A stretch of 64,000 nt of DNA, from contig NKIM01000026.1 in NCBI GenBank assembly GCA_002255955.1, forward strand, positions 1-64,000. Direction: 5' to 3'. A program made the translations under genes and the position numbers. The DNA comes from Burkholderiales bacterium PBB2 (GTDB taxonomy: Bacteria; Pseudomonadota; Gammaproteobacteria; Burkholderiales; Burkholderiaceae_C). The notes under the pieces were generated by a model that worked only from the letters and a program-made list of their open reading frames with translations, had not been told where the DNA came from and did no database searches. This document shows, piece by piece, positions 1,721 through 24,080 of this stretch; positions within the stretch are counted from its first letter, which is position 1; the number at the start of each line of letters is the position of its first letter.

Positions 1721-1933
1721 TGGACGGGACTTCAGGGCTCCTGCAAATCTCGAAATCCTCTGAGAAGTCGGCAAACGCATCGCGAAATGCGGAAGAGCCA
1801 GGTGCAAACAGCACAACAGACTTCAATATTCGACTTCAAACCAGGGGCCGCACATATGGCGGCGCTTTGTGCAGACCTTCTAAAAATTAGAGGCTAGGCC
1901 CCGAGTTGAATACCCTCACATTCGGACGGTACG

Positions 1934-2854
1934 CTATTTCGCCTTCGTAGCGCTCATTTCGACCGAGTCGCCAATAATATCAAACTGTTGGCTTGGGAGC
2001 CTTGCGATGACTGCGGTTGTCCAACCGGCGCTTTGCAGTTCTTGAATTGAAACTCTTCCGATCGTCGCACAATTGAAAACCACATCACCCGACACGGGCG
2101 TCCCACGGGGCACCAGTCGATCTGAAGAGCAGTTCACGTTTATACCCGCCGAGTACCCACGCAATCGCACTACCCGACCAGCGCTTTCGGCTTTGAGCTG
2201 AGCAGCACGCTCGACAGCCGCTGCACTTTGGCGCACGGCTTCCTCTTGGCGCGAGTTTTTTACAGCCTTGGCATGCATCTCTTCTTTGTCAACATGAGCA
2301 GCCCACTCATCAGCACGATAAATATTCCGGAAGTACTTATTGCCTCCAGCATAGGAATACATGCTCATGCCCGATAGCTTTTGCTCAGCGCGGGCGCGGA
2401 AACCGTTGCGTTCATCCATGAGCGTGCCGCCGAGTTCACTAACCTGAGGGCAATCGGAGTGCACTTTGGGCGCTACTCCCGGCGGACAAACGAGCAGCAC
2501 CCGAGTTCGGGTGACAAACTTCGCACTGTTCTTCGAAATGATGACTGTGTAAGTATTTCCAGTCGCATCAATACTCTTGACCTCATCAAGGCGCAAGAAG
2601 CTGACTCCTTTTTCATCTCCGTTCTGCACCCAGAGAATGCCAGTCGGAATGTTTTGCGCTGTATGCGCATCAGCCGCCACGCGATTGATCTTGAAGAATT
2701 CGTCTGAAGAATAAGCGAAGTACTGGATGGTTATCGGGGACTCGAGGTTCGTTTGAACCTTGTACGTTGGGGTAGGCGTCGCGCACCCTGCTAACAAAAA
2801 CGAACAAATGGCCGCGGTGATGTACCCACACTTACTCTTGTTCAGCATTCTCAA
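1934..2854 (-). CDS. Hypothetical lipoprotein
   Basis: 306-aa ORF with a lipobox-type signal (MRMLNKSKCGYITAAICSFLLAGCATPTP). Confidence 0.6.
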   Translation of the reverse strand: MRMLNKSKCGYITAAICSFLLAGCATPTPTYKVQTNLESPITIQYFAYSSDEFFKINRVAADAHTAQNIPTGILWVQNGDEKGVSFLRLDEVKSIDATGNTYTVIISKNSAKFVTRTRVLLVCPPGVAPKVHSDCPQVSELGGTLMDERNGFRARAEQKLSGMSMYSYAGGNKYFRNIYRADEWAAHVDKEEMHAKAVKNSRQEEAVRQSAAAVERAAQLKAESAGRVVRLRGYSAGINVNCSSDRLVPRGTPVSGDVVFNCATIGRVSIQELQSAGWTTAVIARLPSQQFDIIGDSVEMSATKAK

Positions 2855-3126
2855 GCCCCCTGATTGGCAGTGGAATTTGTGTATCGAAAAGTCTATGACC
2901 TCGCTGTAGCAGGTGAGGAAAATGCCTCTTCGGTATGCGTGAAAAATTACTGGAAAACGAATTGCGTTCCGGCCCAGGAACAGCAGATCCAGCCTGCAGA
3001 CCAGTTTGTCAAAGCTGAAAATGGCCCACAGCTGAAGGACTGAAGCGAGCTGTAGTCCGGTTTTACGACGACGTTCGCCGACGGACCTAGTTGGCCGCGA
3101 TTCCGTTGCTGATCGTCAACCACCAG

Positions 3127-3189
3127 CTTTAGCTTTGGGCACTTTGCTGACCGACGAGGGGCCGAGTCCGAACGGCTGCAACCAGTCTG
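3127..3189 (+). repeat. Dispersed ~70-bp repeat, copy A
   Basis: CTTTAGCTTTGGGCACTTTGCTGACCGACGAGGGGCCGAGTCCGAACGGCTGCAACCAG aligns to the reverse complement of 6001-6080 and to 11803-11876. Confidence 0.55.
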
Positions 3190-3343
3190 GTGCTAACGGA
3201 CTAGGCACTTTTGCTTTGGGCACATGCTGCCGCTGACGCCTGAAGACCGATCTGCCACTCTGGATCAACTTCGGCCAGGCGCCAGGCCTACTGCAACGCC
3301 ATCTCCGAGCCTCAAGCCGATGCTCAGGATCAGTTACTGGGCC

Positions 3344-3589
3344 TTAAAGCTGTGCGGCCGCAATCAAGTCCGCCAAACTGGTGTCAAGGGCCTGCGCGAT
3401 TTGTGCGGCGAGTACAAGCCCCACGTTCTGCCCTCCGCGCTCGACACTGCTCACGTAAGAGCGGTCAATTCCCGCCTCGTGGGCCAAGCCTTCCTGAGAC
3501 AGGCCAAGGCTCAGCCGGCGTTCTCGGACAGCTGCGCCGAACGCCAACAGTGTTGGTGTTTGAGCGTGACGAGGAGACTTGCGCGGCAT
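3344..3589 (-). CDS. XRE-family helix-turn-helix transcriptional regulator
   Basis: FGAAVRERRLSLGLSQEGLAHEAGIDRSYVSSVERGGQNVGLVLAAQIAQALDTSLADLI is a HTH_3/XRE signature. ORF extends to 3625; MPRKSP start chosen. Confidence 0.8.
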   Translation of the reverse strand: MPRKSPRHAQTPTLLAFGAAVRERRLSLGLSQEGLAHEAGIDRSYVSSVERGGQNVGLVLAAQIAQALDTSLADLIAAAQL

Positions 3590-3827
3590 CCATAAATGGT
3601 TTGCTATTGACGTCAATAGCACCACGGACGATCATCCTCAATCTGCGGTTTGTGCTCGAACGCGGTGCGCGGCACAGATTGAGTTGGCCGAGTTGCCTCG
3701 AGTGCCTTTTTTCTTGCATCCGTAGGGGCGCGTTGCGGCTCGGGCTGCAGCCCGAGCTGCTGCTCGATCTGAACTGGCCGCCTTGGCGTTAGCCCTATCT
3801 GTCTGACCCTGCCTGGAGGGATACCCC

Positions 3828-4307
3828 ATGCTCAAGAAACTACCGCCGGTCTTTTTTCGCATACGCACCGCGCTGATGCGCAGCGGTCGTTCCTCCCATG
3901 ATGCGGACGACCTTGTGCAGGAAGCTTGGGTTCGCCTGGCTTGCTATGAAGGTGAGCAGGTGGTTGCCAAACCTGAGGCTTTCATGATGCGAGCGGCTCT
4001 CAATTTGTCCATTGATGCTCACCGGTCCAGCGTCTGCCACGGTGAACAGCTGATGGTGGATGAGGTGGTTCTGCTCGACACCGCTCCGGGCACCGAGGCA
4101 ATCGTGCTGGCTCGGGAGCGCATGGCGCGTCTGAGTCTCGGGTTAGGGCGCCTGACCGACAAGACCCGGGACATTTTTCTGTCACACCGGATCGATGGTT
4201 TGACCTACCAAGAGATTGCCCAGAATCATGGCTTGAGCATCAGCACGGTGGAAAAGCATGTCGCCAAGGCCACCCTGCAGCTGACTAGCTGGATGGAAGG
4301 TTGGTAG
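3828..4307 (+). CDS. FecI-like ECF RNA polymerase sigma factor
   Basis: SSHDADDLVQEAWVRL (region 2) and LTDKTRDIFLSHRIDGLTYQEIAQNHGLSISTVEKHVAKA (region 4). Followed by a FecR gene with overlapping ends. Confidence 0.85.
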   Translation: MLKKLPPVFFRIRTALMRSGRSSHDADDLVQEAWVRLACYEGEQVVAKPEAFMMRAALNLSIDAHRSSVCHGEQLMVDEVVLLDTAPGTEAIVLARERMARLSLGLGRLTDKTRDIFLSHRIDGLTYQEIAQNHGLSISTVEKHVAKATLQLTSWMEGW

Positions 4308-5413
4308 TGGTTGCTGAGTTTGAGGCTGATCCGGGCAGGGCAGGACGTGTGGACAGTGGGCGTGTTGGGCTTGCTGCGGAAGCGGGAGGACATTCACCGC
4401 CTTTGGTGACGCCTGACATCGCTGCTGAAGCCGCTGTGTGGATCGCGAGATTGCATGGCCCCAGCCGTACGCCAGCTATGGTGCGCGAGTGCTTGGCTTG
4501 GCAGGCCCAGTCACCCGCGCATCGCCTTGCCTTCGAACGGTGTACGGAGACATGGCAGGAAGTTACAAATCTCAGTCTCAGTGCTTATGCAAACACCTGG
4601 AGCAGCGCCGAGAAGGTTTCAGGGCATCGCTTGAGAGTCACCAAGCCTATGCAGTGGGCCTTGGCGGCGGTGTTCCTGGCGCTGGCCTCCGTGCTGGTCT
4701 TGGCGCTGCAGCCATCGCGAACTGGAGAGGTGTACGCCACGGAAGTGGGGGAGCACCGGGTGGTGATGCTCGCGGATGGCAGTCGCATGTCTCTGAACAC
4801 CGCCACGAAAGTTCGGGCAAGTCTAAGTTCGTCTCAGCGGCTCGTTGAAGTCGAGGCTGGGGAGGCGCTGTTCGAAGTGGCCAAGGACGCGAGCCGCCCC
4901 TTTCTGGTGACTGCGGGTGAGACTGCGGTCAAAGCGACTGGAACCGCTTTTCTCGTGCGCTTGCTGCCGAGCATGCAAGAGGTCAGCACGTCGCTCGAAG
5001 TGACCTTGATTGAGGGACAGGTTGTCTTGCGGCCTCAAGAAGGTCTTGTGGGCTTAGCGGCGGGTGCTGGTCCGGTCGAGATGACTGCTGGGGAGCGTGT
5101 GCGCTTTGATGGCGCGATGGCCGCTTCACGGTTTTTAAAGGTGCGAGTTGATCGGTCAAGTCTGGACCGAGCTGTCGCCTGGACACGTGGTGAGGCCTCG
5201 TTTGACGATGTCACCCTCAATGAGGCCGTGGCGGAAATGAATCGCTACAGCTCGAAGCCCATCGTGATCGTCCATGCCGACAGGCTCAAGGCGCTGCGAG
5301 TCAGTGGCCTGTTCAGGACGGGCGACAGTGTGAGCTTTGCGCGAGCTGTGGCAGCGCTGCATGGTTTGGACGTCCGAGAGCACTCTGATCGTTTGGAGCT
5401 GGCGCCGCGCTGA
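4301..5413 (+). CDS. FecR-like anti-sigma/signal-transduction protein
   Basis: WQAQSPAHRLAFERCTETWQEV, one TM helix (MQWALAAVFLALASVLVLAL), FecR core (GEHRVVMLADGSRMSLNTATKVR...GEALFEVAKDASRPFLVTAGETAVKATGTAFLVR), C-terminal STN-like segment. Start codon uncertain. Confidence 0.8.
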   Translation: MVVVAEFEADPGRAGRVDSGRVGLAAEAGGHSPPLVTPDIAAEAAVWIARLHGPSRTPAMVRECLAWQAQSPAHRLAFERCTETWQEVTNLSLSAYANTWSSAEKVSGHRLRVTKPMQWALAAVFLALASVLVLALQPSRTGEVYATEVGEHRVVMLADGSRMSLNTATKVRASLSSSQRLVEVEAGEALFEVAKDASRPFLVTAGETAVKATGTAFLVRLLPSMQEVSTSLEVTLIEGQVVLRPQEGLVGLAAGAGPVEMTAGERVRFDGAMAASRFLKVRVDRSSLDRAVAWTRGEASFDDVTLNEAVAEMNRYSSKPIVIVHADRLKALRVSGLFRTGDSVSFARAVAALHGLDVREHSDRLELAPR

Positions 5414-5641
5414 AGGGCAGCTGCGGCAGCAGCAGGGCAGGGGAGAGGCGGCCCGCTCCCGTGTCAGTGGATGGAGGCTTCAATGCCTTCATGCGTTGTA
5501 TGAACGCGCCCCCTTGCCGGACAGGCCTTCGGCCAGACCGGCACCGCCGACACCCGCCACGCCCGATGCCGGGCCGCCGGAGCGCGTTCAGGCCGACTTG
5601 ATGTCGCGCCCGGGGCGTCACTCGTGCACTGGGCTCAAAAG

Positions 5642-5751
5642 GGTTCGGATGCGGTCCGGATATGGTCCGCTTTTGGTCCGGATACGGTCCGGATACGGTT
5701 CGCTTACGGTCCGGATATGGTCCGGATATGGTCCGGTTTCGGTCCACATCC
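5642..5751. repeat. 11-bp direct tandem repeat, about 10 units, consensus GGTCCGGATAY
   Basis: Units read: GGTTCGGATGC GGTCCGGATAT GGTCCGCTTTT GGTCCGGATAC GGTCCGGATAC GGTTCGCTTAC GGTCCGGATAT GGTCCGGATAT GGTCCGGTTTC GGTCCACATCC. Confidence 0.9.
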
Positions 5752-6000
5752 GCCTGATTGCTGTCGGTTGGCTAGCGACCAGGCTCACCGCGCGCTCGGA
5801 AAGTTAGGCATCGGCGGTGATCTGGGCCTGAAATTCAGCGCCTGGCCGCAGCTTTGAAGACCAAGAACACTAGGAAAACTTGAGTGCAGGATAGGCTAGC
5901 TGCCAGCATTTGGATGCCAATCTTGCCTTTCCGCGCGCTGCTGTGGATTGGGGTTTTGGCGGACCCGGGCGCTATGTTGATCTGATGGATTTAGAAGGCA

Positions 6001-7437: not shown

Positions 7438-8619
7438 ATGAAAACTGAAGTTCGCAATGCTGCTGAGCTGGCTGCCTGGTTGACGCTCCCCGGACCTGCG
7501 GTCATCCAGGATCTCGACCTCACGGCCGCGGCAGCGGAGTTCGCCAAGCGCGACCTCGCCGGCTGCGCCTTCCTGGGCTGCGTCATGGCCCCTGACCTGG
7601 CCAAGGCGGCGGGGGAAGCTCACTGTCTGGTACTTCCGCCCATCGAGGCGTCGGACGAAGCCCCCTTCAATCCGTACTCGGTGAGCATGTACACGCCGTG
7701 CGAACTTTACGATGGCTACGACCCGGACGATGTCGGCACCTACGACAGGTATTTCGACCGCAAGGTGTATCTCTCGTACATGTCCCTTGGTCCGCCGGCC
7801 GAGCTCAAGCCGGTGGCGGCCGATGTCCTGCTGCTGCGCCGGATGCATGACGCCACGATTGCCACCGCGCTGGACGCCTTCGTCAAGGGCGCCCAGGGGC
7901 GCATCGTCGCCATCATGGGTGGCCACGATCGTGCCCGCAGCGACGCGCTCTACCTCGAAGTGGCCATGCTGGCGCTGGAGTTGACGCGCAAGGACTACAT
8001 CATCGCGACCGGCGGTGGCCCAGGCCTCATGGAGGCCGCCAATCTGGGCGCCTATGCCGCCGGCTTTGCTGACCCCGAAGCCGTGGTTAAGGCGTCCGTC
8101 GAGCAACTGAAGGCGGCGCCGACCTACAAGGACGCCAACTGGCTGAAAGTCGGCTACAAGGTCTGGAAGGGGCTGGGCAAGCCGGTCGATTTCCAGAAGA
8201 GCCGCAACCTCGGCATCCCCACCTGGTTCTACGGGCACGAGCCGCCCAACCTGTTTGCCACGGACATCGCGAAGTACTTTGAGAACAGCGTCCGGGAGGA
8301 GGGCCTGCTGGCCATCGCGCATTCCGGCGTGCTTTTCGCCGAGGGCAATGGCGGCACCGTGCAGGAGATTTTCCAGGATGCCTGTCAAAACTACTACCGC
8401 ACGTACGCTCAGCTGAAGAGCCCGATGGTGCTGTTGGGGACGGCGTACTGGAACTCGGCCTATTCCGACTACAGCAATCCAGCCGACCGCCGGCGGCCGC
8501 TGTACCCGGTCCTGAAGAAGCTGGCTTTCGAGAAGGGCTTCGCCGACTACGTGCACATCACCGACAGCACAACCGACGCGATCGATTTCCTCGTCAAGCA
8601 CCCGCCGGTCAAGGCCTAG
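7438..8619 (+). CDS. LOG/SLOG-superfamily Rossmann-fold nucleotide-binding protein
   Basis: IVAIMGGHDRARSDALYLEVAMLALELTRKDYIIATGGGPGLMEAANLGAYAAG and LFAEGNGGTVQEIFQDA resemble the LOG GGGxGLM and PGGxGTxxE motifs. Confidence 0.65.
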   Translation: MKTEVRNAAELAAWLTLPGPAVIQDLDLTAAAAEFAKRDLAGCAFLGCVMAPDLAKAAGEAHCLVLPPIEASDEAPFNPYSVSMYTPCELYDGYDPDDVGTYDRYFDRKVYLSYMSLGPPAELKPVAADVLLLRRMHDATIATALDAFVKGAQGRIVAIMGGHDRARSDALYLEVAMLALELTRKDYIIATGGGPGLMEAANLGAYAAGFADPEAVVKASVEQLKAAPTYKDANWLKVGYKVWKGLGKPVDFQKSRNLGIPTWFYGHEPPNLFATDIAKYFENSVREEGLLAIAHSGVLFAEGNGGTVQEIFQDACQNYYRTYAQLKSPMVLLGTAYWNSAYSDYSNPADRRRPLYPVLKKLAFEKGFADYVHITDSTTDAIDFLVKHPPVKA

Positions 8620-8690
8620 GCTGGCTGGCCGCTCACCCTTGGACGGTGAGCGCGGCGAACAACACAACTCGAACACGGAAGAGGGACGGA

Positions 8691-9833
8691 ATGGCCGATA
8701 TCGGAAAGCGCTTGATCCAGCTGCGCGCGCGGCGGGTAGGAGACGATCGCCCGCAACGCACGGCGTTGAGTGCCGCGCAGACGCTCGACGTCATGGCGAA
8801 GTCGCTGTACCAGTCGGACGAGAAGTGGGAAAGGAACCGACAGGCCCGCCCCTACACCGCCTATGCACTGGGTGCGATGCAAGAAGTCGGGGAGACCTAT
8901 ACCAGGGTCAGCGTGGAGGAGGCCGAGCGCGTGGGCAAGCAGCTTGTCCCACGGCTGGCCCGCCGCGGCATTCCTGCTGAGTACCGCCTGCAGGGATCCG
9001 TGCCGCTGAACGTGCACATCCGCCGTGTGAGTGACGTGGACCTGCTGTTGCTGGACACCAGCCATCGGACGTACGACAGGCAAGGCGTCATGGCGGCGAG
9101 CGGCGCCTATCTCTATCAACCTGCGAGGAGCTCGGTAAGCGTGCTCGGCTCGCTGCGCGCGGGGGTGGTATCGAGCTTGAGGGAAGCCTTCCCGGCTGCG
9201 ACAGTCGATTCCTCGGGCGCAAAGGCCGTCACCGTTTCCGGTGGATCGCTGCAGCGCGTGGTCGACGTCGTCTCCTCGCACTGGCATGACACCATCCAGT
9301 ACCAGAGTTCTCGCATGGAGCGGGATCGCGGCGTCACGATTCTCGACTCCAAGAAGGTCACGACGATCGACAACCTGCCATTCCTGCACATCCACAGGGT
9401 GGGAGAGCGATGCGACGGAATATTCGGAGGGCTGCGCAAGTCGATCCGCCTGTGCAAGCAGGTCAAGGCCGACATGGAGATGGAAGGCAAGACGGTCTCG
9501 TTCCCGAGCTTCGACATCGCAGCGACGATGTATCACGCCGACATGGGGCAGCTCCGAATGGGCCTGGTGTACGAGCTGGCCATCCTGGCCGAGACGCAGC
9601 GCTTCCTTGACTATTTGCACCATAACAAGGACTACGCCAGGACGCTGGTGACGCCGGACGGCCTGCGCCGCATCTTCGACGATCCGAAGAAGCTGGACGG
9701 CCTCACCCAACTCTCGGTTGAGATGGACGATCTGCTCAAGCAGGTCGCGCGGGAGCATGGCTACGGCGTTTCCACGTATCTCTCCACGGAAGACCTTCGC
9801 ACCAAGCTCAAACTCACGAACGTCGAGGCATGA
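8691..9833 (+). CDS. CD-NTase-like (cGAS/DncV-like) nucleotidyltransferase 1
   Basis: LQGSVPLNVHIRRVSDVDLLLLD (GS motif plus D-x-D) and a later Asp in GGSLQRVVDVVSSHWHDTIQYQ. GAGGGACGGA Shine-Dalgarno-like sequence precedes ATG 8691. Confidence 0.7.
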   Translation: MADIGKRLIQLRARRVGDDRPQRTALSAAQTLDVMAKSLYQSDEKWERNRQARPYTAYALGAMQEVGETYTRVSVEEAERVGKQLVPRLARRGIPAEYRLQGSVPLNVHIRRVSDVDLLLLDTSHRTYDRQGVMAASGAYLYQPARSSVSVLGSLRAGVVSSLREAFPAATVDSSGAKAVTVSGGSLQRVVDVVSSHWHDTIQYQSSRMERDRGVTILDSKKVTTIDNLPFLHIHRVGERCDGIFGGLRKSIRLCKQVKADMEMEGKTVSFPSFDIAATMYHADMGQLRMGLVYELAILAETQRFLDYLHHNKDYARTLVTPDGLRRIFDDPKKLDGLTQLSVEMDDLLKQVAREHGYGVSTYLSTEDLRTKLKLTNVEA

Positions 9834-9837
9834 CCCC

Positions 9838-10785
9838 ATGGCGGAAATCCCGGAATTTGCAGCGCCCGACCGGCCGCTGCGCGTCTTGACGCTCGATGGC
9901 GGTGGCGCCAAGGGCTTCTACACGCTCGGTGTGCTCACCGAGATCGAGGCCATGGTCGGCGGGCCGCTGCATGAAAAGTTCGATCTGATCTTCGGTACGA
10001 GCACCGGATCCATCATTGCATCGCTGATCGCGCTGGGCCAATCCGTTGACGAGATCCTGACGTTGTACCGCGCACATGTGCCGACGGTGATGTCCGAGAA
10101 GACGCGCGCCGGCCGAACGCGGGCGCTGACCGAGTTGGCCAAGACGGTCTTCGGCGATGCCAGCTTCGCGGCAGTGAAGACCGGCATCGGCGTCGTGACC
10201 ACGAAGTGGTTGACCGAGCGGCCCATGATCTTCAAGGCCAGCGTGGCCCAAGCCCATGGTCGAGCGGGCACCTTCGTGCCGGGATTCGGCGTGTCGATCG
10301 CGGACGCCGTCAGGGCATCTTGCTCGGCCTACCCATTCTTCGAGCGCACCATTGTCAAGACGTCGAAGGGCGAAAGCATCGAGCTCATCGACGGCGGCTA
10401 TTGCGCGAACAATCCGACGCTGTATGCCATCGCGGATGCGGTGCACGCGCTCAAGCGAGACCGTCAGGACATTCGCATAGTCAGCGTCGGCGTGGGCGTG
10501 TACCCCGAGCCGAAGCCGCCGTTCTGGATGCGGCTGGCCAAGAGGTACGTGGTAAGCGTCGAGCTGCTGCAGAAGACGCTGGAGATCAACACGCAGTCCA
10601 TGGATCAACTGCGCCAGGTGCTGTTCCACGACGTGCCCACCGTCCGCATCAGCGACACCTTCGCCCAGCCGGAGATGGCCACGGACCTGCTGGAACATGA
10701 CCTGGCCAAGCTGGACGTGCTGTTCCAGCGCGGTAGAGAGTCCTTCGCGTCGCGCGAGAAGCAGCTGCGCGAGTACCTGATGTAG
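9838..10785 (+). CDS. Patatin-like phospholipase (CapV-like candidate CBASS effector)
   Basis: [23 protein letters not shown] (GGGxKG), [16 protein letters not shown] (GxSxG) and [17 protein letters not shown] (DGG) complete the Ser-Asp dyad signature. Start is 4 nt after the upstream stop. Confidence 0.85.
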
Positions 10786-10799
10786 GGGCAGAGTTCGCC

Positions 10800-11693
10800 A
10801 TGGCCATTCCCGAGTCTCAGTTGGTGACCTGGTCACACCAGGGGTCCATCGCCCAATCGTCGACCACCTACAACAGCATCAAGGGGGTCCTCGAAGGCAA
10901 CGGCACGCCGTACGCGGGCAAGAACTACAAAGTCTTCCTGCAGGGCTCTTACGGCAACGACACCAACATCTGGGCGGAGAGCGACGTCGACATCGTCATC
11001 TGCTTGAACGATTGCTGGCAGCGGGATATTGAGGCCTTGTCGCCAGATGACACGGCCGCGTATCAGGGTGCGTTCGTCGACGCCACCTATGGGCATGTCG
11101 AGTTCAAGAACGATGTGGTTGCTGCGTTGACGGCCCGGTACGGGGCAGACGTCAAGGTCGGCGACAAAGCCATCGCCCTCGCGGCCAATGGTACCCGGCG
11201 CAAGGCGGATGTCATCGCTGCGATCCAGTTCAGGCGCTACTACAGGTTCAAGTCCGCCTCCAATTCGACCTACGACGAAGGCATCTGCTTCTACAACGCG
11301 GCCGGTGAGCGCATTGCAAACTATCCGCGCCAGCACTCGGCCAATCTCACGCAGAAGCACAAGGACACCTCGCAATGGTTCAAGCCCGTCGCGCGGGTCT
11401 TCAAGAATATGCGCAGCCGCCTCGTCGACGACGGCCTCCTCAAACCGGGCGTGGCGCCGTCTTATTACATCGAAGCGCTGCTCCACAACGTGCCGAGCGG
11501 GCTATTCGGCACCAACTACCAGAGCTCTGTCGCCAATGTCATCGACTGGTATCGCAACGAGGCTGACAAGACGCAGCTTGTCTGCGCCAACCACCAGTAC
11601 TACCTGCTGCGCAACGGCGCGCACACCTGCTGGAACCAGGCCAACTGCGATGCGTTCGTCGACGCTGCCGTGGAGCTTTGGCATAGCTGGTGA
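10800..11693 (+). CDS. CD-NTase-like nucleotidyltransferase 2
   Basis: [26 protein letters not shown] (GS-x-DVD) and [16 protein letters not shown] (third acidic residue). Confidence 0.75.
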
Positions 11694-11802
11694 GGGTAAG
11701 AATCAGATGTTCCTTGGGTCACACCCGTTTCTGCTGGCGACCTGCGATATCGACACGCCTAGCAATGCCCGCAACGAAACCCGGTGGGCGGTGTACTCGC
11801 CG

Positions 11803-11876
11803 AGCGAATTTCAGCTATGGGCACATTGCGGCCACTTGCTTGGCGGATCCATGCGACTACAACCAGCCCAAAGGTG
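11803..11876 (+). repeat. Dispersed ~75-bp repeat, copy C
   Basis: GAGCGAATTTCAGCTATGGGCACATTGCGGCCACTTGCTTGGCGGATCCATGCGACTACAACCAGCCCAAAGG, inverted match of 6001-6080. Confidence 0.7.
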
Positions 11877-12397
11877 CGTCTTCCGAGGCTGGTTAGTACG
11901 AGTCAGTACAGGCAAGCAAAGTGGGCAGTAGGAATCGGCACGGATGATCAATGAGGCCGAAAGCCCCAATCTTTGTCCCTGTGAAGCTGGTCGGATCGCC
12001 TAGGAGATGAGCATGGTGCTTAGTGCATAGAGGCTGGAGGAGCAGCGGGGCGCCTCCGCCGAGCTTCGTACACAGGTAAGCACGTCAGTTGAGCGCCGCA
12101 ACAAGGCTCGCGAAGAAATCGAGAAAGCCCGAAGTTTCGAGCCGCTCAACGCAGAGGGGGCAATTGCCGTCCTACAAGAGACCCTCAAGGTCGCCTACAT
12201 CCACGATCTGCACATCACAGCGAAGTACGCCAGCCTGATATCGACCAAAGGGACCCGCCCCATGTCTCCAGACTCAGGGCAGCGACTCTCAACGAAGCCT
12301 TACGCTAGCTAGCGTGCAAGCTCAGCACAAGCCACCCAGGCAGTCGGTACAGTCGCTGTCGGCTTCGTGCTGACAGCTTGTTTGAAGGGAAGAGCCC

Positions 12398-12883
12398 ATG
12401 CCAAAGAACCTGACCACGACCTTGATCCTGTTGTTGGTCTTCGGGCTGGCCATGACGATGATCGCCCTCAAGAGCATGAGCGCTGGGCGCCGCAGGGCCA
12501 GGGGCGACATCCGCGCGCGCAAGCTGCTAACGAATCGAGAACAGGCAATGTTTCACCGCCTGCAGCAGGCCTTCCCTGAGCACATCGTGCTCACCCAGGT
12601 TGCCTTCTCCGCACTAATCACGGCCAAAGACCTACCCACTCGCGCCATCTTCAATCGCAAAGTGGCGGACTTCGTCCTGGCGAGCAAGGCCTTCGACGTC
12701 GTGGCGGTCATCGAGCTCGATGACGCCAGCCACCGTGGCCGGGAAGATCATGACCGCGGGCGTGACATCTTGCTGGAGCGCGCGGGCTATCGCGTGACGC
12801 GGTTCAAAAACGTACCGGACGTTGAAGCAGTCCAGCTCGCGGTGCGCCCGCCTATCGCAGCGGACCCGGCGCTTCGGGTTTGA
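12398..12883 (+). CDS. DUF2726 domain-containing protein with N-terminal TM segment
   Basis: TM TLILLLVFGLAMTMIAL, then RKLLTNREQAMFHRLQQAFPEHIVLTQVAFSALI...FNRKVADFVLASKAFDVVAVIELDDASHRGREDHDRGRDILLERAGYRVTRF. Confidence 0.8.
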   Translation: MPKNLTTTLILLLVFGLAMTMIALKSMSAGRRRARGDIRARKLLTNREQAMFHRLQQAFPEHIVLTQVAFSALITAKDLPTRAIFNRKVADFVLASKAFDVVAVIELDDASHRGREDHDRGRDILLERAGYRVTRFKNVPDVEAVQLAVRPPIAADPALRV

Positions 12884-13047
12884 CGCTGCAGGTAGACGGC
12901 GGTTGTCGCATCACAGGGCCACGCCCCCAGCGCGCAGCGCGTTGGCGATAGCCGGTTGGCTCTCGCTACGCCTCTGCATGATGAAAAATTCTGTTTTGGG
13001 TTACTATTCTTTCAGCAGAAATAAGAAAGAGCACCCAAGGAAGAGCT

Positions 13048-13422
13048 ATGCAAGCCAGCCCCGTAATGGAAGTTGACCGCACCCATGTGCTGGGCAAGGC
13101 CACGCAACGTGCCGCCGAAGCCCTGGGCCTGAACGGCCGCGAGTTGGCACTGACCGTCGGATTCAGTGAGCCGACGGTGTCACGCATCGTGAAAGGTGAG
13201 CGTGGCATCGATCCCACTTCCAAGGAAGGCCAACTCAGCCTCATGCTGGTGCGGGTGTTTCGCTCACTCGACGCGCTGGTGGGCGGCGACGCCGCAAAGC
13301 GTCTAACCTGGATGAAATCGCACAACTCCGCCCTGAACGGTGTTCCGGCGACACTCATCGTCACGGCTGAAGGCCTGGGTCGAACACTGGCCTACCTCGA
13401 CGGCATGCGCGCTCCGATCTGA
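13048..13422 (+). CDS. Xre/MbcA/ParS-type antitoxin
   Basis: LGKATQRAAEALGLNGRELALTVGFSEPTVSRIVKGERGIDPTSKEGQLSLMLVRVFRSLDALVGGDAAKRLTWMKSHNSALNGVPATLI matches the Xre-MbcA-ParS antitoxin layout. Overlaps the RES gene by ATGA. Confidence 0.85.
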   Translation: MQASPVMEVDRTHVLGKATQRAAEALGLNGRELALTVGFSEPTVSRIVKGERGIDPTSKEGQLSLMLVRVFRSLDALVGGDAAKRLTWMKSHNSALNGVPATLIVTAEGLGRTLAYLDGMRAPI

Positions 13423-14147
13423 TGACCACGGCTCCAATCGAAATTCCGTTCGCTTGGGAACCAGCCTGGTTTCAGACTTGCGCGCCGGCCGAAATGACAG
13501 CCTGGCGAGGCGTGGAAAGCCAAGCACAAGTCGCCACATGGCGGCTCGTCGATTCGAGCGCCGAACACGACGCATTGGAAGGAATGCTGGAGGCTTCGAA
13601 GCCACCGCTGCCTGAAGGCTGCCAGGGACTTCACTATTTGCTGTTCACACCGTTTCGATACACCTCGCCCTACCAGTCGCGGTTTCGGCGCCCGAACGAG
13701 GCTGGCATCTGGTATGGCGCCGAATCGGTGGAGACCGTGTGCGCCGAGCTCGCATATTGGCGCCATCGCTTCATTCTCGATTCAGCAGGCTTGGCCAAGG
13801 ATGCCGATGGACTGCTGACGCTGCACACGCTTTTTCAGACTCGTGTCCAAGGTCAGTCAATGAACCTGACTGAGGCCCCTTGGGATGCTGGGCGCGCCCT
13901 GTGGACACACGGCGCCGACTACAGCAGCACACAGGCAGTCGCCGCCGAGGCTCGCGTTCATGGCGTCGAGTGGATTCGTTACGAGTCGGTGCGTTGCCCC
14001 GGGACGCACTGCGCAGCGGTTCTTAGCCCGCGGGCACTGCGCTCAGTTCCGCCCTTCGGCATGCAGGAATGGGTCTGTAGTACAACCCGCGCTCGGGTGA
14101 TCGTCACCCACAAGGACAGCGGCACGACCTTCAGCTGGGATTTCTAG
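13422..14147 (+). CDS. RES-domain toxin
   Basis: TWRLVDSSAEHDALEGML...FRYTSPYQSRFRRPNEAGIWYGAESVETVCAELAYWRHRF is the RES signature; directly after its antitoxin. Confidence 0.85.
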   Translation: MTTAPIEIPFAWEPAWFQTCAPAEMTAWRGVESQAQVATWRLVDSSAEHDALEGMLEASKPPLPEGCQGLHYLLFTPFRYTSPYQSRFRRPNEAGIWYGAESVETVCAELAYWRHRFILDSAGLAKDADGLLTLHTLFQTRVQGQSMNLTEAPWDAGRALWTHGADYSSTQAVAAEARVHGVEWIRYESVRCPGTHCAAVLSPRALRSVPPFGMQEWVCSTTRARVIVTHKDSGTTFSWDF

Positions 14148-14224
14148 CGTCAGATGCAATGCTGCGACGGGGTACTCCTGCAGTTAGACACTACCGTCAC
14201 TGAAATCGGTACCTCGTGCAATTT

Positions 14225-14312
14225 GGCTGGGCTTGTGGGTCAGCACTTATCGTCTGTTCCGTGTCAGTTGGCAGCTTCGTGCCCGAAGTCGAAGTCCGTC
14301 GAATTTCAGCAA
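14225..14312 (-). repeat. Divergent or mosaic copy D of the dispersed repeat
   Basis: GGCAGCTTCGTGCCCGAAGTCGAAGTCCGTCGA parallels GGCAGCAATGTGCCCAAAGCCGAAATTCGCCGA of copy B; adjacent TCGAATTTCAGCAATAGG parallels copy C. Confidence 0.4.
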
Positions 14313-14471
14313 TAGGCTGGTTGCAGACCTTCGCGCCAGGCTTGCCAGGGACTGCTTCCGGCTCAAGCGGACACTCATCATCAGCCGGCCCATGGCCGCG
14401 AGCCGAGTAGCGAGCTGTCCGACGGGAGCCTCAGCCGCAAACGGGGTGGTTTCAGCGCTACCGTGCTGACG

Positions 14472-17400
14472 TTAGGCGCCCGGCCGCTCGGCCGCCTGAA
14501 GCCACTCGCCAAGCATCGAGGTCGGCACGGACAGGAACAAGTCCTGCAGGGCGACGACCCTCCGAAGCATCTCCCCACTGTCCGAAGCCTCGCGCTCTTC
14601 TGCCTCCCTGAACAGAGACGTGAGCAGGGCCCCAAGTGGCTTTGGGTCGTAGAACGGCGTCGTGTCCCGGGCCTTGCAGATGCCGGCAATGATCTCCGCG
14701 ATCTCGAGCGCCTGGTCCGGGTCAATCTCGGCGAAGCGGCTGAGCCACTCGTCAATCCCGGGAGCAAGATTGCCGCCGGGCTCCGGGCCCACGCCACCGT
14801 TAAGGTACACGGAGCGGAACAAACCCAGCGGAATACGCGGTACGGGAGATTGTTCCCGGAACAGTGCGCTCATACGTTGAAGCAGCGGCGCGTGGGCCAC
14901 GGCATGGGAGGCGGCGGCAGTCATCCCTGAGAAGCATTCAGACGCATGGGTGGCGTTGCCTGCGTTGGCGACCCACACCGAGACGGCGCCATCCCATGCG
15001 GATGCCTCAGCACGCTGCGCCAGCTTCTCAAGCAGGACCTGCGAAGCGATCTGCCCCTCAAGCACAGCGAGCGCAGACAGGCGCGCCCAGACCTTCAGCG
15101 CAGTTGGCAGGTCGGAGTGCTCCATCCTGTCGATGTACGGCTTGGCGCGCGCGAAGAGCTTGCCCGTCGCGTAGTACAGCGTGTGAGCTGCGTACTTCCA
15201 AACCCGCTGATCGTTCGCAGAGAACGCCGCATCGAACAGTTCCCAGCCCAGCTCGCTCTTCGTCTGCATATAGGCCAGTTGCTGAACGACTACCGCGCGC
15301 ACGGCAGGATGGCAGTCTTGCGCCAGGCGCCGGAGCGCTGGCGCCAGAAGCGCGGGCAGCTCCCGCCCCTCCTCAAACAGGCGATTCGCCAGCGAGAGGA
15401 GCCCTTCCGCCAGTTCGCCGCGCGAGCTATTGATGGCCGTGAAAATCAGATCATCGTCCTGCCGCTCGCCGCAAGGCGGGTCTTCCGCCCTGATGTGCGC
15501 CGGTGCGAGGAAGGCCACACGCGCCGCGTGGTCGTCGCTCGACGCCACCGATGCGCAGCCAGATAGCGCCGTTGCCCCCTCCCGCCTTCCGGTCCAGAAG
15601 GCCGGGTGCCGCTCCAGTTCCACCAGCAGCAACTCCAGGATTTCCGAGCGGTCGACATCTTCCTTGGCCCTCCACGCCGAGTTCTGGAGGTTGCCGTACC
15701 GATATCGCAGGTAGTGCGCTGCGCCGTCGAATACCGCCCGCTTCGACGGGTCGGGCAGGTCATGCCAACGCAGCGCAAGGAGCTCGAGAAAGCGACGTGG
15801 CGCCTCACTCGAAACCGAGTGCAGCAGTTGATTGACCGACTCGAAGCCGCCAACGAGTTCGTGGAATGGACGGAGGCCGTTCCCGAGGGTCATGCTGCTG
15901 TCCAGCAAGGCAACCAGCGCATCGTCGCTGAGTCCCGTCAGTTGGTCTGCGTGAAACGGAGCGCCCACCATACCGCTTGAGGAATGGATGTCCGGCCGGC
16001 CGTCAGGTGGCGGAAGTTCGACCGCCATGCGGGCAATGGCCGACGTCACGATTGGCGAGCGCAACAACACTGGAATTTGAGTAAGCAACTCATAGCGCTC
16101 GACCTCGACCCAGGGCTTGGACCGGCTCTCGTACTCGCTGAGCCTTTGGAATATGTGCCGTTCGGCAAGTTCGATCGCCTCGCCGAGAAAGGGGGCCACC
16201 GCCCAGATCAATCGACCCAGCTCGTAGCGATCCGTCAGCCGCGGGCGTCGATCATCGGCAAAGAACTGCTTGGCCGCGTCGGCATTGCGCTCCGGGCAGT
16301 CGGTCATTGCCAGAACGCCGATGTAGCGCAAGGCGCCGCAGTCGGCCAGGCAGATCCTGAGTGCGTTGGCGCTCCACCAGCCATCATGAGCCTTCGCGCG
16401 CTGAAGGATGGCGGCCTCGATCGACCGTACCAACCTTTGCAGGGGCGACACATGCCGCACCGCATGATTGGAGTGTGTGACCGAATAGCTCGTCTCTTCG
16501 CGCAGTTCATTGTTTGGCCCTTCTGCAACTTCGCCAGGGGCAGAGTAGGGGCCGAGCGCGAGAGTCCTGCTCCAGGACTCGAGGGCCGACACGGCCAGGT
16601 TCAGCAGAGCATCGGAGTCGGCGAAGCGCTGGAGCAGTTCCTTTTCGTGCCTAAAATTCGATTCATCGCATTTCAGCTTCTCCTCGATCTCGCTGTCCCT
16701 GCTTGGGTTCGTCGGTACGTCTCCGGCGATGTACTTCCAGACGAGGGCGTCGCCCCGAGCATCGTGGCGCGCCCACTGCAGGAGGAAGTCGCCCAGAGAG
16801 TCGTGATCCCCGGACGGCAGACTGAGCAGGCTCTCCAGGAGTGCCTGAGCATCGACCTTCTCGAGATGCTTGAAGCCGCGGACCATGTAGCTGAACTGGC
16901 CTCGAAGGTTCCTCTCCTTCGCCACGCTGGATGCGGCAAGCCGCGTCCAGAATGCAAAGACGCCCGCGGGATCGTCATTGACCCATGCCTGCAATTTCCG
17001 GAAGTGGATTCCAAGCCACCTCGTATCGCCATCGGCATCCAGCATGGGCACCAGGTTACGCATCCAGAAGTGGTGCCAGGCCAATTTGTGGCCGTGGTCG
17101 TACACCGACGCGAAGTGCTCTGGATGTTTGCGGAACAGGTGCCGTACAAGGCTCCAGTCGCGATCATCAGGTTCGCAGGCGGCATACGACTCGCCGATCA
17201 GCCGCTTGATGTGGAACGCCGCGTCGCTGTCGAAGACTGATCGAACCTGCGCGCCGAAGTTTGCACGGTCGGTCAAGCGGAGGTGCGCGAAGAACGCGCG
17301 GATCGCCGGCCTGATGAAGGGCACGGGCTGCAGCGACTGGATGAACTCGAGCAAGCCCAGACCACGGCGGACGCCATCGCGAACCGCAAGCGCATCAAGC

Positions 17401-19052
17401 AGCGTCTGGTGTCCGAAGCCGACGTCGCCGCGCCCGCTCTCGAAAAGCACGTTGGCACTGCACAGGCGGCGCAGCAGGTCATCGCTGGCCTGTACCCTGC
17501 TGCGCCGCAGTTGATGACGGCGCTGGGTCAGCATCTCGTTGGCCATCGTCTCGATGGCAATCATCGCCGGTGTGCCCAGGTTCGAATCCCCGGCAATCAC
17601 GATATCCAGATAGAGGTCGGTCAGTTCCTGTGCGCTGGAGAGGCTCTTCCGCTCGGACTTGGTGGCGACATCCGCAAAGAGCGCCAAGTTGCGGGGATTG
17701 CCGAGCAGTTCCCGCGTTGACGCATCAAGGGCGGCAGTGTCGACGCTGAGCCCGCTCAGCAGCGGCTCGACAACATCGCTCCAATCCAGCAGGCCGATCT
17801 CGACCGTTTGGTCCCAGCGCCGACCTGCCAGATTCCAGTTGTATTGCAGGTCGAAGCTGCGGCAGGCCACGACGACGCAGGCATCAGGAATCATCCTCAA
17901 GCGATCAATGAGGGTCAGGAAATAGGTCAGGCACTGCGTCTCGCGGTTCAGCGAGAGTACGTCCAGTGAGTCGATGATGACGACGACGCGTTTCCATTCG
18001 GACATTGCCGACACCAGCGCAGGAATGTCGGGATCCAGGCCCAGAGCCACGCGGCCCTCCTGGTCGTTGGCGTCGGCGTAGTCGCGCGCCTGCAGGAAGA
18101 GCGTGGCGACGTCGGTGCGAGCTTCCAGTTCCTCCGCGAGTTGCAGCAGCACGCAGGTCTTGCCCGACCCCGGACCGTCGGTCAGCAGGACGCTCCCACC
18201 GGCGGCGATTGCATTCCTCAGGTCCGCCACCGCAGTGCGCTCGACCCGCTTGCCGGCGATCTCGCGCCGCCACTGGCGCCCGATGGCCGACATTCCTCTT
18301 AGCTTGCCCTCTACATCCGCCTGGACGCGTGGGGGGGCAATGGCACACCCCTTGTCCTGGAGAATCTGGAGCAACTCGCTTCGCGAAATGCGATGGGTCT
18401 CGGCGACCAGGGATGGATCGGCCGTGCGGGCGCCCAGCCCATCGAGCACGGTCCAAAGCGCGTTGTAGGCATCGTCCGCACGGGTGACCTGCTGAGCAAG
18501 GTCCAGCTTCAAATGGGTTTGGAGTTCACCTAGCCCGCGGGTCGGGTCAAACCTGATCCTCCGCAGCAGCGCGTGAATGTCGCGCGTGCCCTTTGCAAGA
18601 GCATCCTTCCATGCAGCGTTCAGTTTGGCCAGCTCGGCTGAAAGCGCCTTCGGGAAGCCACTCTGAAATGCAGCCAAGTCTGGCGTCTGATGTGCCCGCT
18701 CAACCAATCGTCCGAGATCGCCGAAGTCTGCTCGCGAGTAGAAGCGTACTTCCACATTCGGCTCAGCCATCAAGTGCTCAGCTGCTTTCTTGAGATCTTC
18801 TTCGAGCTCGGTCACCTTCCAAGCGGTGAATCCAGGCTCGTTCTTTTTGCATTGGCAGCAGATCTCGTGGCCAGAGGCTTGGCCAAGAATGACGTCGTCG
18901 ACTGGCGCCGGTATGCCTCCCGAGATGACTCGGGTCGAGTCGAGTTCCATCCAGACAAGGTCTGGGTCCTTGATCATTCGAATCGCCCAGTCCATGGCGA
19001 CGCAAACTTGGTAGATGTCGCCGCGACTGGAGCGTGTGCCCGCAAGGCTCAT
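14472..19052 (-). CDS. Large (~1526 aa) STAND-type P-loop NTPase with possible nuclease-like N-terminal domain; candidate antiphage protein
   Basis: Walker A LLTDGPGSGKTCVLLQL, Walker B RVVVIIDSLDVLS, ELLGNPRNLALFADVA, long helical C-terminus; N-terminal MELDST...DDVILG...EICCQCKKNE resembles a (D/E)...QxK nuclease pattern. Start at 19052 supported by GAGGGAAG upstream. Confidence 0.75.
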   Translation of the reverse strand: MSLAGTRSSRGDIYQVCVAMDWAIRMIKDPDLVWMELDSTRVISGGIPAPVDDVILGQASGHEICCQCKKNEPGFTAWKVTELEEDLKKAAEHLMAEPNVEVRFYSRADFGDLGRLVERAHQTPDLAAFQSGFPKALSAELAKLNAAWKDALAKGTRDIHALLRRIRFDPTRGLGELQTHLKLDLAQQVTRADDAYNALWTVLDGLGARTADPSLVAETHRISRSELLQILQDKGCAIAPPRVQADVEGKLRGMSAIGRQWRREIAGKRVERTAVADLRNAIAAGGSVLLTDGPGSGKTCVLLQLAEELEARTDVATLFLQARDYADANDQEGRVALGLDPDIPALVSAMSEWKRVVVIIDSLDVLSLNRETQCLTYFLTLIDRLRMIPDACVVVACRSFDLQYNWNLAGRRWDQTVEIGLLDWSDVVEPLLSGLSVDTAALDASTRELLGNPRNLALFADVATKSERKSLSSAQELTDLYLDIVIAGDSNLGTPAMIAIETMANEMLTQRRHQLRRSRVQASDDLLRRLCSANVLFESGRGDVGFGHQTLLDALAVRDGVRRGLGLLEFIQSLQPVPFIRPAIRAFFAHLRLTDRANFGAQVRSVFDSDAAFHIKRLIGESYAACEPDDRDWSLVRHLFRKHPEHFASVYDHGHKLAWHHFWMRNLVPMLDADGDTRWLGIHFRKLQAWVNDDPAGVFAFWTRLAASSVAKERNLRGQFSYMVRGFKHLEKVDAQALLESLLSLPSGDHDSLGDFLLQWARHDARGDALVWKYIAGDVPTNPSRDSEIEEKLKCDESNFRHEKELLQRFADSDALLNLAVSALESWSRTLALGPYSAPGEVAEGPNNELREETSYSVTHSNHAVRHVSPLQRLVRSIEAAILQRAKAHDGWWSANALRICLADCGALRYIGVLAMTDCPERNADAAKQFFADDRRPRLTDRYELGRLIWAVAPFLGEAIELAERHIFQRLSEYESRSKPWVEVERYELLTQIPVLLRSPIVTSAIARMAVELPPPDGRPDIHSSSGMVGAPFHADQLTGLSDDALVALLDSSMTLGNGLRPFHELVGGFESVNQLLHSVSSEAPRRFLELLALRWHDLPDPSKRAVFDGAAHYLRYRYGNLQNSAWRAKEDVDRSEILELLLVELERHPAFWTGRREGATALSGCASVASSDDHAARVAFLAPAHIRAEDPPCGERQDDDLIFTAINSSRGELAEGLLSLANRLFEEGRELPALLAPALRRLAQDCHPAVRAVVVQQLAYMQTKSELGWELFDAAFSANDQRVWKYAAHTLYYATGKLFARAKPYIDRMEHSDLPTALKVWARLSALAVLEGQIASQVLLEKLAQRAEASAWDGAVSVWVANAGNATHASECFSGMTAAASHAVAHAPLLQRMSALFREQSPVPRIPLGLFRSVYLNGGVGPEPGGNLAPGIDEWLSRFAEIDPDQALEIAEIIAGICKARDTTPFYDPKPLGALLTSLFREAEEREASDSGEMLRRVVALQDLFLSVPTSMLGEWLQAAERPGA

Positions 19053-19960
19053 GCTTCTTCCCTCTAGTGCTGTGGGTTGCTGTTCATGTTGTAGCTGGTG
19101 GCCCACCCCATCCAGCCTAGTCCGTTGTACTTCGTGGCGGTGAAGTCTGTTGGGGCCGGAACGCCAGCAGCAGCTCGCTGCTTCGCAGTGGAGCCGAGCT
19201 TACATGTCGTGGCGATGGCACGGTCTCGCTAGTGCCGAGCCACGGCTTCCGCCCGAAGCCATGTCCCGGCAGCGTTGTTCCCGCAAGACTAGCCATTGCG
19301 TTCGGCGACTTGCAGTCAGACGCAGGAAAGCCTGCCGTACCGGTGCAGGCGTTTGGGGTCCTTTTCGCGCAACAGCACGACGTCGCTCTCATCCCGGGTC
19401 GTCTTGTCGAGGAGTTCCAGTCTGGCCAAGTCGCGCAACGAGTCCCTAGAGTTCAATAGGACCTGCTCATAGGGCGCCCGCGCGAGCAAGGTGACGGGCA
19501 CCTGCGCGCGCACAGCCGATCCGACACCGTATTCGAGCTCAGTGGTCGCTGCTTCGGGACAAGCTGGGAGCGCCGAGTGACAGGACCACAGCCGACGCTG
19601 GCGCCGCGGGGGAGAGTGACTGCAACCGCTGCATAGATGCCGACCGACGGCCAACGATGCCTTCAGGCTGATCTGAGACGTTCGACGCCCGAGTCCTGAA
19701 CGGCGCCAACGACGAACACCGGTGATCCAGTGCCGGCGGCCTTTACCGAAAGCGTTACCGCCGATTCTTGTTGCCCGATCAAGGCCGGCCTAGCAAGCCG
19801 GACCGCCCCCCGGATTGCTGCAGGCTCAAGCGACCCTGAGCTGTATGTCAGTCAGGCCGCAACCGTCTGACTTTAACCAACTGGCCTCCGCGGAAACCAG
19901 GGCGGTTCAAGTATGCTCAGTGTTGATGCTTGACTATCCGGATTTCCAGGCCTTCTAGAC

Positions 19961-22183: not shown

Positions 22184-23524
22184 TCATGTGCCTGTTGTGC
22201 ATGCCCTCTCTAGCTCCTCTAGTGCTGCGTGCAGCTCGGGCAAGTAGTCGTACGCGTCGTAGTGGCGGTCTTGCACTCCACTGATGCCATGGCTTTGGAG
22301 CCTGCCGCGTGTGTCCTTGCTGATCTTGAGGCTGGCCAGGATGGTCTCCACGCCGCTTCGAATTCGTTTGGTCTGAAAGCAGGCGATCTTGTCGCCCACG
22401 GCATCGCTGGCCCAAGCGCTCAGTGTCGAACTGACGACATGGGTTGCGCCGACGTTTTCGCCCGCGACTGTAGAGATTGCATAGTCACCCGACAGGTCTA
22501 GCTGCTGAATGGCTTCTTGCGCTTTCACGGTCAGGGGCAGGGTATGCCTTCGTGCCGGCCGACCTGGGCGCCCCTTGCCGTCGAAGATCGTGATGCTGTC
22601 AGCGGACACATCAGCAGACTTCAGTCGGACCAGTTGTTCGATTCGCTGCCCGCCTGTGAGCAGGTGCAGTCTGAGCGTCGCGCCCTTGATGCCAGGCAAA
22701 TCCTTGATGCAGTTCCAATAGACCCGCATTTCGTCAGCAGATAGCGGGTTCTTGTCGGCCTTGTTTGCTTCACTGTTGGCGGCGGTTTCAGCTGCGGGGT
22801 TGTGCTTCACTTGGTAGCCCTTGAATGCAACCGGAATTTTGGGATTCGTCTTGGCTTTGCGAGCGACCTCGTAGGCCGCTCCCATATAGGCCCGGAGCTT
22901 GTTGGCTGTACGTTCTTTGCCCGCCTCGATCAGTCTTCGGCTCATGTCCGCCACTTGCTCGTCGGTCACGTCCGCAGCGGGCTGACTTGCCGTTTCAGGA
23001 AAGGCCACTATCGCGTGATTGGTCAAAATGGATTTGGCGTCCTTGTATGAGGTTCGGCCGAGCGATTCAAGATAGAGCCAATAGGCTCTCAGCAATTCGG
23101 CCAGCGTGTATTTGCTCCGCCGATCAAGCTCGGCTTGAGCTTGGGCTAGTGCAGCCGCTTGGTCGTTGATGGCTTTGGCTTGGGCTTCTGCCTTGGCTTG
23201 TACAAGTCCCGCATGCCCACCTTGGCTCTTGGCATCGTCGTGCTGCAAGGCCAGTCTTGCTGCTTCAGCCGTTGCCGCGGCAATAGTCCAGCGCCCGTCG
23301 ATGGGGGCTAGGGTCTTGGGCGGCAACTTACCGTCATACAGGCCAATCTCTACACGATCAGTCCCACCTTTGAATGTGTAGCGCCAGTAGAGTTTCACCG
23401 CTCCGCTGGATAGCTTGCGGGCTTGCAGTGCGCCGTTTGGAATGACCTTTGCCAGCGTGATGAACTGTCCTGGCTTCAGGCCTGCGAGTGTCTCGCCAGC
23501 AGTTTTTTGTACTTTGGTCGCCAT
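22184..23524 (-). CDS. Tyrosine-type site-specific integrase
   Basis: LRLHLLTGGQRIEQLVRLKSADV (catalytic Arg box), C-terminal region ending HYDAYDYLPELHAALEELERA; adjacent to a tRNA-Lys 3' fragment. Some catalytic motifs look divergent. Confidence 0.75.
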   Translation of the reverse strand: MATKVQKTAGETLAGLKPGQFITLAKVIPNGALQARKLSSGAVKLYWRYTFKGGTDRVEIGLYDGKLPPKTLAPIDGRWTIAAATAEAARLALQHDDAKSQGGHAGLVQAKAEAQAKAINDQAAALAQAQAELDRRSKYTLAELLRAYWLYLESLGRTSYKDAKSILTNHAIVAFPETASQPAADVTDEQVADMSRRLIEAGKERTANKLRAYMGAAYEVARKAKTNPKIPVAFKGYQVKHNPAAETAANSEANKADKNPLSADEMRVYWNCIKDLPGIKGATLRLHLLTGGQRIEQLVRLKSADVSADSITIFDGKGRPGRPARRHTLPLTVKAQEAIQQLDLSGDYAISTVAGENVGATHVVSSTLSAWASDAVGDKIACFQTKRIRSGVETILASLKISKDTRGRLQSHGISGVQDRHYDAYDYLPELHAALEELERACTTGT

Positions 23525-23715
23525 CCCTTGCCCCTCCATCTGGTGCCAGTCTGGTGCCAGTCTTGCCTCAGCGATTTGGAGCTGGTGCCAGTCTGGTGCC
23601 AGTTTTGGCGCGATTGATGTTGGAAATTCTAGGACGTTGTTGGCAGCGTTTCTATATGAATCAACAACTTACGATTGATGTGTTGTCCGGCTTCAGCCGC
23701 GAAAATCCATATTTT

Positions 23716-23765
23716 TCGGACTCTTAATCCGTAGGTCGAGTGTTCGAGTCACTCAGGGCCCACCA
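23716..23765 (+). other. tRNA-Lys(CTT) 3' fragment; putative integration (att) site
   Basis: CGGACTCTTAATCCGTAGGTCGAGTGTTCGAGTCACTCAGGGCCCACCA: anticodon arm, T arm GAGTG/CACTC, acceptor 3' strand and CCA. No D arm or 5' acceptor strand upstream. Confidence 0.8.
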
Positions 23766-23785
23766 AAAATTAAGAATGAAATCAA

Positions 23786-23818
23786 CAGCTTAGCGGCGTA
23801 GGTCGCTAAGCTGTTTTT
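23786..23818 (+). terminator. Rho-independent terminator downstream of the tRNA-Lys fragment
   Basis: CAGCTTAGCG-GCGTAGGT-CGCTAAGCTG-TTTTT. Confidence 0.75.
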
Positions 23819-24080
23819 CTTTGTACTTCTGATTTTCGGCCCACGCAGGCACCATGTAGCCGTGGGCACCCGCTGAGGCCGGCGGTTTCTGAGAGCGTGG
23901 AAGGTAGACCTCCAACTCGGCCCCGCCATCGCCCTCTAGACAGCGGTTGCCTGATGCGCTGTCGGTCCTGTCGAGGTATCTCAGCACCGCGCACTTCCCA
24001 GTAGGGGTGAGTCAGGTTGACGATCGAGTGGGAATGATCTCGTGGGCTAGAAACTTAGGTTCAGGCCCCGAGTGAAAGCA

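Follow-up and report, generated by a model that had tools for sequence, protein, structure and literature searches.

A diverged nuclease-STAND protein of a Burkholderiales bacterium, a probable single-gene antiphage receptor in a family with apparent effector exchange

Which function may be assigned to a very large protein encoded beside a CBASS-like operon and a toxin gene in a Burkholderiales bacterium? We have studied its gene in a stretch of 64,000 nucleotides, which we call the window, and in related genomes. The protein has three parts in the order effector, NTPase and sensor, a layout which is a hallmark of STAND immune receptors, AVAST included (PMC12931631). Most probably it is a single-gene AVAST-like immune receptor with a nuclease as its output, for which we infer an antiphage role.

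The gene is found on the minus strand in positions 14472..19052, stop codon included, with an intact frame of 1526 aa. A longer form of this open reading frame, 14472-19106, starts from a GTG and would give 1544 aa, but the ATG at 19052 is the better choice: in the alignment every nuclease-type relative has MS at exactly that point, and a Shine-Dalgarno-like GGAAGAAGC is placed directly 5' of it. The start originally predicted is upheld in this way, and the motifs cited with it for a protein of about 1526 aa in 14472-19052 are all present and conserved in the relatives. A copy which is 94% identical is found in a betaproteobacterial MAG. Compared with it, dN/dS is about 0.25 for the whole gene and 0.10 over residues 1-110, the nuclease core: purifying selection acts on the window gene, which is intact. 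The MAG copy has an in-frame stop at codon 149, which may point to a pseudogene or to an error of assembly. The open reading frame and its motifs are not due to chance, given the full-length relatives across the phylum, the relative in the PDB (E = 6e-301) and the dN/dS values. A scan for a promoter and a terminator at the gene found none.

When the PDB is searched with phmmer, a single protein matches over the full length: 9n00_A (also 9n01 and 9yix), described as an 'AAA family ATPase' of 1523 aa. Residues 1-1524 of the query align with residues 1-1523 of the chain with E 6.1e-301; with the family profile the score is 2200.9 bits. This colinear similarity over the full length places the window protein in the family of PDB 9n00, nuclease-STAND proteins of about 1523 aa. 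They have the same start, nuclease motif and Walker motifs, although by sequence they are distant; the other full-length relatives are 31-39% identical. A full-text literature search found no paper citing 9n00, 9n01 or 9yix. Since the protein belongs to this family its novelty is modest: it is a further, diverged member of a rare family of putative immune receptors with a solved structure, and with that structure at hand mutations can be designed to test the function without delay.

As judged from the genomes searched, the family is rare and scattered. Full-length or long relatives (31-39% identity) are found in four further genomes among 399 of the order; there are two more in the phylum sample and three, partial, in the class sample. 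Three full-length relatives come from IMG/VR contigs and five records from cyanobacterial plasmids. None of 16 other genomes of the genus has the gene, and no match was obtained by a DNA search of E. coli genomes or by a protein search of phage records. One genome of the same bacterial family (G1138) has the gene only as a broken set of separate pieces (L030-L032), a decayed copy. In Nostoc sp. MS1 the nuclease-type relative (L013) is split by an IS630-family transposase gene, in positions 8487-9703 of that locus.

The first part of the protein, residues 1-250 (18303..19052, minus strand), is supported as a Cap4/LmuA/HamA-type nuclease, which would cleave DNA. An AlphaFold model built from six sequences has a mean pLDDT of 80.5. 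When it is compared with the PDB by Foldseek, each of the best 16 matches is a nuclease effector of antiphage defence, namely Hachiman HamA, Lamassu LmuA or CBASS Cap4, with E values from 8e-7 to 6.5e-3 and moderate TM-scores, 0.45-0.59. The original prediction of a nuclease-like N-terminus was open to the objection that this region might have no nuclease fold; the same comparison returned nuclease folds. Two kinds of fold had been proposed. The Cap4/DUF4297-like one agrees with the model, with the LmuA and Cap4_nuclease profiles and with hhalign; the Mrr-like alternative, or a generic restriction fold, was dropped, as Foldseek points to Cap4/LmuA/HamA. Among the profiles, the PADLOC LmuA model matches eight of nine family members (best 6e-10), with a weak value of 2.7e-4 for the window protein alone; the ninth member matches the caspase model and fits the single caspase-type row of that alignment. 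Pfam Cap4_nuclease matches four of ten N-termini. The alignment of the family with five Cap4 domains gathered here has in hhalign an E of 2e-5 and a probability of only 77%; it brings together G-x3-Q, the DD pair, Q-x-K-K and then W.

The putative catalytic segment is D52 D53...Q67-C68-K69-K70 (18843..18899, minus strand), with E36 at 18945-18947. D52, D53, Q67, K69, K70 and N71 are invariant in the alignment of 10 nuclease-type members. A nuclease fold is thus accompanied by the DD..QxK active-site pattern of the Cap4/LmuA type. In HamA the active-site pair E138/K140 is required for defence (PMC12278908).

The strongest sign that the N-terminus is the effector comes from relatives in which it seems to have been exchanged. 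Proteins of Nostoc carneum and Tolypothrix plasmids, 1711 and 1709 aa long, share with the window protein the region of its residues 220-1521. They open with a caspase domain, with FFAGHG and DCCF motifs (Peptidase_C14 1.2e-11, PADLOC caspase 5.5e-15). Between the caspase and the NTPase there is a remnant of the nuclease: BLASTP aligns it to the nuclease-type protein of Nostoc sp. MS1 with 47% identity across 64 residues (6e-17) and 55% across 99 residues (6e-32). In this remnant the DD pair has become NN, and Q-x-K-K has been lost together with the segment after it. A caspase thus appears to have replaced a functional nuclease, which lost its catalytic residues. Exchange and loss together point to residues 1-250 as the effector and to a catalytic role of DD/QxK. 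In their C-terminal half the four caspase-type records agree to 95-100%, so that the swap was probably one event in one plasmid lineage.

We lean slightly towards a fuller reading of these proteins: on the cyanobacterial plasmids a caspase would have been added in front and the nuclease would have decayed, catalytically dead but still bridging caspase and NTPase, in a distinct AVAST-like receptor type apart from Avs1-5, whose conserved sensor would recognise a yet-unnamed phage protein. A dead nuclease kept in its place would be a natural experiment, from which the effector part and its important residues can be read. The exchange resembles that of effectors in the NLR receptors of animals and plants; with its fossil nuclease it is the part which deserves the attention of specialists. 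On the Tolypothrix plasmid (L015) the caspase-STAND gene is flanked by genes for a trypsin-like peptidase and a second caspase, in positions 1757-4717 and 10293-14339 of that locus; they recall the protease-nuclease pairs of PMC12799240.

The second part, residues ~255-560, is supported as a STAND/NACHT-like NTPase by motifs which run through the family. Walker A (GPGSGKT, residues 293-299, 18156..18176) has P294, G295, G297, K298 and T299 invariant; Walker B (VVVIIDSLD, residues 356-364, 17961..17987) has I360, D361, L363 and D364. They are followed, also on the minus strand, by the STAND GxP-like motif GNPRNLALF (residues 451-459, 17676..17702), where P453 is the only residue invariant across relatives, and by the winged-helix/NACHT-type motif FGHQTLLDAL (residues 546-555, 17388..17417) with an invariant H548. 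AAA models match nine of nine members and the NACHT Pfam model five of nine; the window protein itself gives in Pfam only AAA/nSTAND matches, which are weak. A structure model of residues 1-642 from two sequences is poor (pLDDT 48.9) and its best Foldseek matches are generic AAA ATPases, so that the NTPase assignment is based on motifs and profiles. The P-loop core and the NACHT/STAND-like GNPRNLALF of the original prediction are in this way borne out.

The third part, residues ~600-1526 (14475..17255, minus strand), is presumed to be the phage sensor. It is the long C-terminal part already remarked from the sequence, and it is colinear in all full-length relatives. Its identity is 25-39%, also where the effector differs. 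In Pfam, PADLOC and NCBIfam it has no domain match beyond chance level. A comparison of the C-terminal halves of nuclease-type and caspase-type members could reveal what the shared sensor recognises.

How does this protein compare with known defence systems? Avs3 has an N-terminal Cap4/DUF4297-type nuclease, a STAND NTPase and a long C-terminal sensor. AVAST type 3 has therefore the same layout as the window protein, and one of the relatives (L018) is adjoined by an Avs3a with 1981 bits. However no Avs1-Avs5 model of PADLOC 2.0.0 matches the window protein at E <= 1, and hhalign against that Avs3a gives a probability of 0.6%, with 48 columns around the P-loop only. The lengths also differ: 1526 aa against 2090 positions in the Avs3a model. 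Membership in Avs3 was ruled out by the missing PADLOC match and the weak P-loop resemblance. Of the Avs-type layout first proposed, the order effector-NTPase-sensor stands, whereas the protein belongs to no known Avs type. A literature search for further Avs types found nothing relevant. LmuA, Cap4 and HamA share the nuclease fold of the window protein, and Cap4 also its DD..QxK pattern. These nucleases are driven by a separate SMC partner, cyclic nucleotide or helicase; the nuclease of the window protein has a STAND switch of its own in the same chain. The PADLOC candidate PDC-M54A matches residues 145-404, the linker and the NTPase, with E 2.4e-17; as its best stretch covers about 260 of 1621 model positions, it would be a related NTPase and not the same protein. 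The Salmonella prophage ATPase GiPD474 (PMC12724215) is ParA-like and was set apart as a non-relative by its description.

Our computation shows the layout in three parts, the nuclease fold and the conservation of its active site, the motifs of the NTPase, the swap of effectors, and the placing of the genes in defence islands or prophages. For the steps between them we rely on established STAND biology, by analogy with which ligand binding, oligomerisation, DNA cleavage and antiphage activity would be expected. In AVAST the C-terminus binds a phage protein, ATP-dependent oligomerisation follows and the effector is activated (summarised in PMC12724215). At rest the C-terminal half of the window protein would keep the NACHT/STAND ATPase inactive in an ADP-type state. 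Binding of a phage-encoded protein by this half would lead to ATP loading and oligomerisation, which would join the N-terminal Cap4/LmuA-type nuclease domains. The activated nuclease would then cut DNA, of the phage, the host or both, and infection would be stopped by abortive suicide or by genome destruction.

The same receptor might have a different trigger: DNA damage, foreign DNA or plasmid entry instead of a phage protein. The nearest nuclease folds are those of HamA and LmuA, whose partners sense DNA, and HamAB responds to DNA damage (PMC12278908). However the window protein has no helicase or SMC domain, its long C-terminal half has no nucleic-acid-binding match, and proteins are what the STAND receptors of such a layout have so far been found to bind (PMC12931631). 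We consider a trigger of this kind rather improbable, and keep a phage protein as the preferred ligand.

The setting of the gene bears on whether it serves the host or a mobile element. In the window it lies on an island which carries a tyrosine integrase (22184..23539, minus strand; phrog_1 integrase 8.7e-19, Phage_int_M) and which ends near 24,015: at about this position collinearity with other genomes of the genus begins. Beside the integrase there is a stretch of about 80-106 bases, 23717-23823, with copies 87-95% identical both elsewhere in its own genome and in several genomes of the genus; perhaps it is an attachment or excision site. The defence context first noted from the window extends to relatives: one (L016) has as neighbours a CD-NTase, a patatin and a type IIG RM enzyme, another (L017) has PD-Lambda-1 (2.5e-113) directly upstream, and two (L025 and L027) are found among phage genes: terminase, endolysin and repressor, or tail and spanin. 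The remaining loci (L006, L007, L019, L020, L021, L022 and L028) are without a clear defence neighbour or were scanned partly or not at all. This setting is supportive, not statistical. No neighbour is common to the relatives in the gene calls inspected, so that the system looks single-gene; a conserved partner gene had been considered, as PDC-M54 may be a multi-gene candidate, and was discarded.

The two prophage copies and the integrase island would also suit a superinfection-exclusion or addiction factor, which serves the competition between mobile elements and not the defence of the host; but other copies adjoin known defence genes, and its mechanism would not differ, so we hold this to be very unlikely. 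A signalling ATPase without a role in defence, such as a STAND regulator of transcription or development, deserves hardly any credit: multicellular bacteria have many uncharacterised STAND proteins and the NTPase matches are generic, but the N-terminal nuclease has the fold of antiphage effectors and is swapped for a caspase in relatives, and the distribution is rare, patchy and mobile. An antiphage receptor is thus the reading we retain.

The CBASS-like operon and the RES toxin, which had been reported as neighbours of the gene, are both found in the window, on the same island as the gene. The first extends over 7438-11693 on the plus strand and has one patatin effector with a different CD-NTase on either side: 8646-9830 is similar to the STING-associated CdnE (6wt9/6wt8) and 10800-11690 resembles CdnE (6e0k). 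Two cyclases within one CBASS-like operon are unusual. Its first gene, 7438-8616, has a LOG/SLOG-like stretch. The toxin forms a pair with an Xre/MbcA/ParS antitoxin in 13048-14147, also on the plus strand, opposite to the STAND gene. A joint operon of the latter with the RES, DUF2726 and CBASS genes was ruled out, since they are on the opposite strand.

The segment 3860-5919 of the window, in which genes for a sigma factor and a FecR-like protein are included, has three copies with 84-89% DNA identity in another genome of the genus and one more in its own genome, on contig 27; it resembles a multi-copy cassette. Within 5631-5762 there are 11-base tandem units of the type GGTCCGGATAY. Contig 27 (L040) also has a separate Cap4_nuclease gene, with 59 bits, above the family cut-off.
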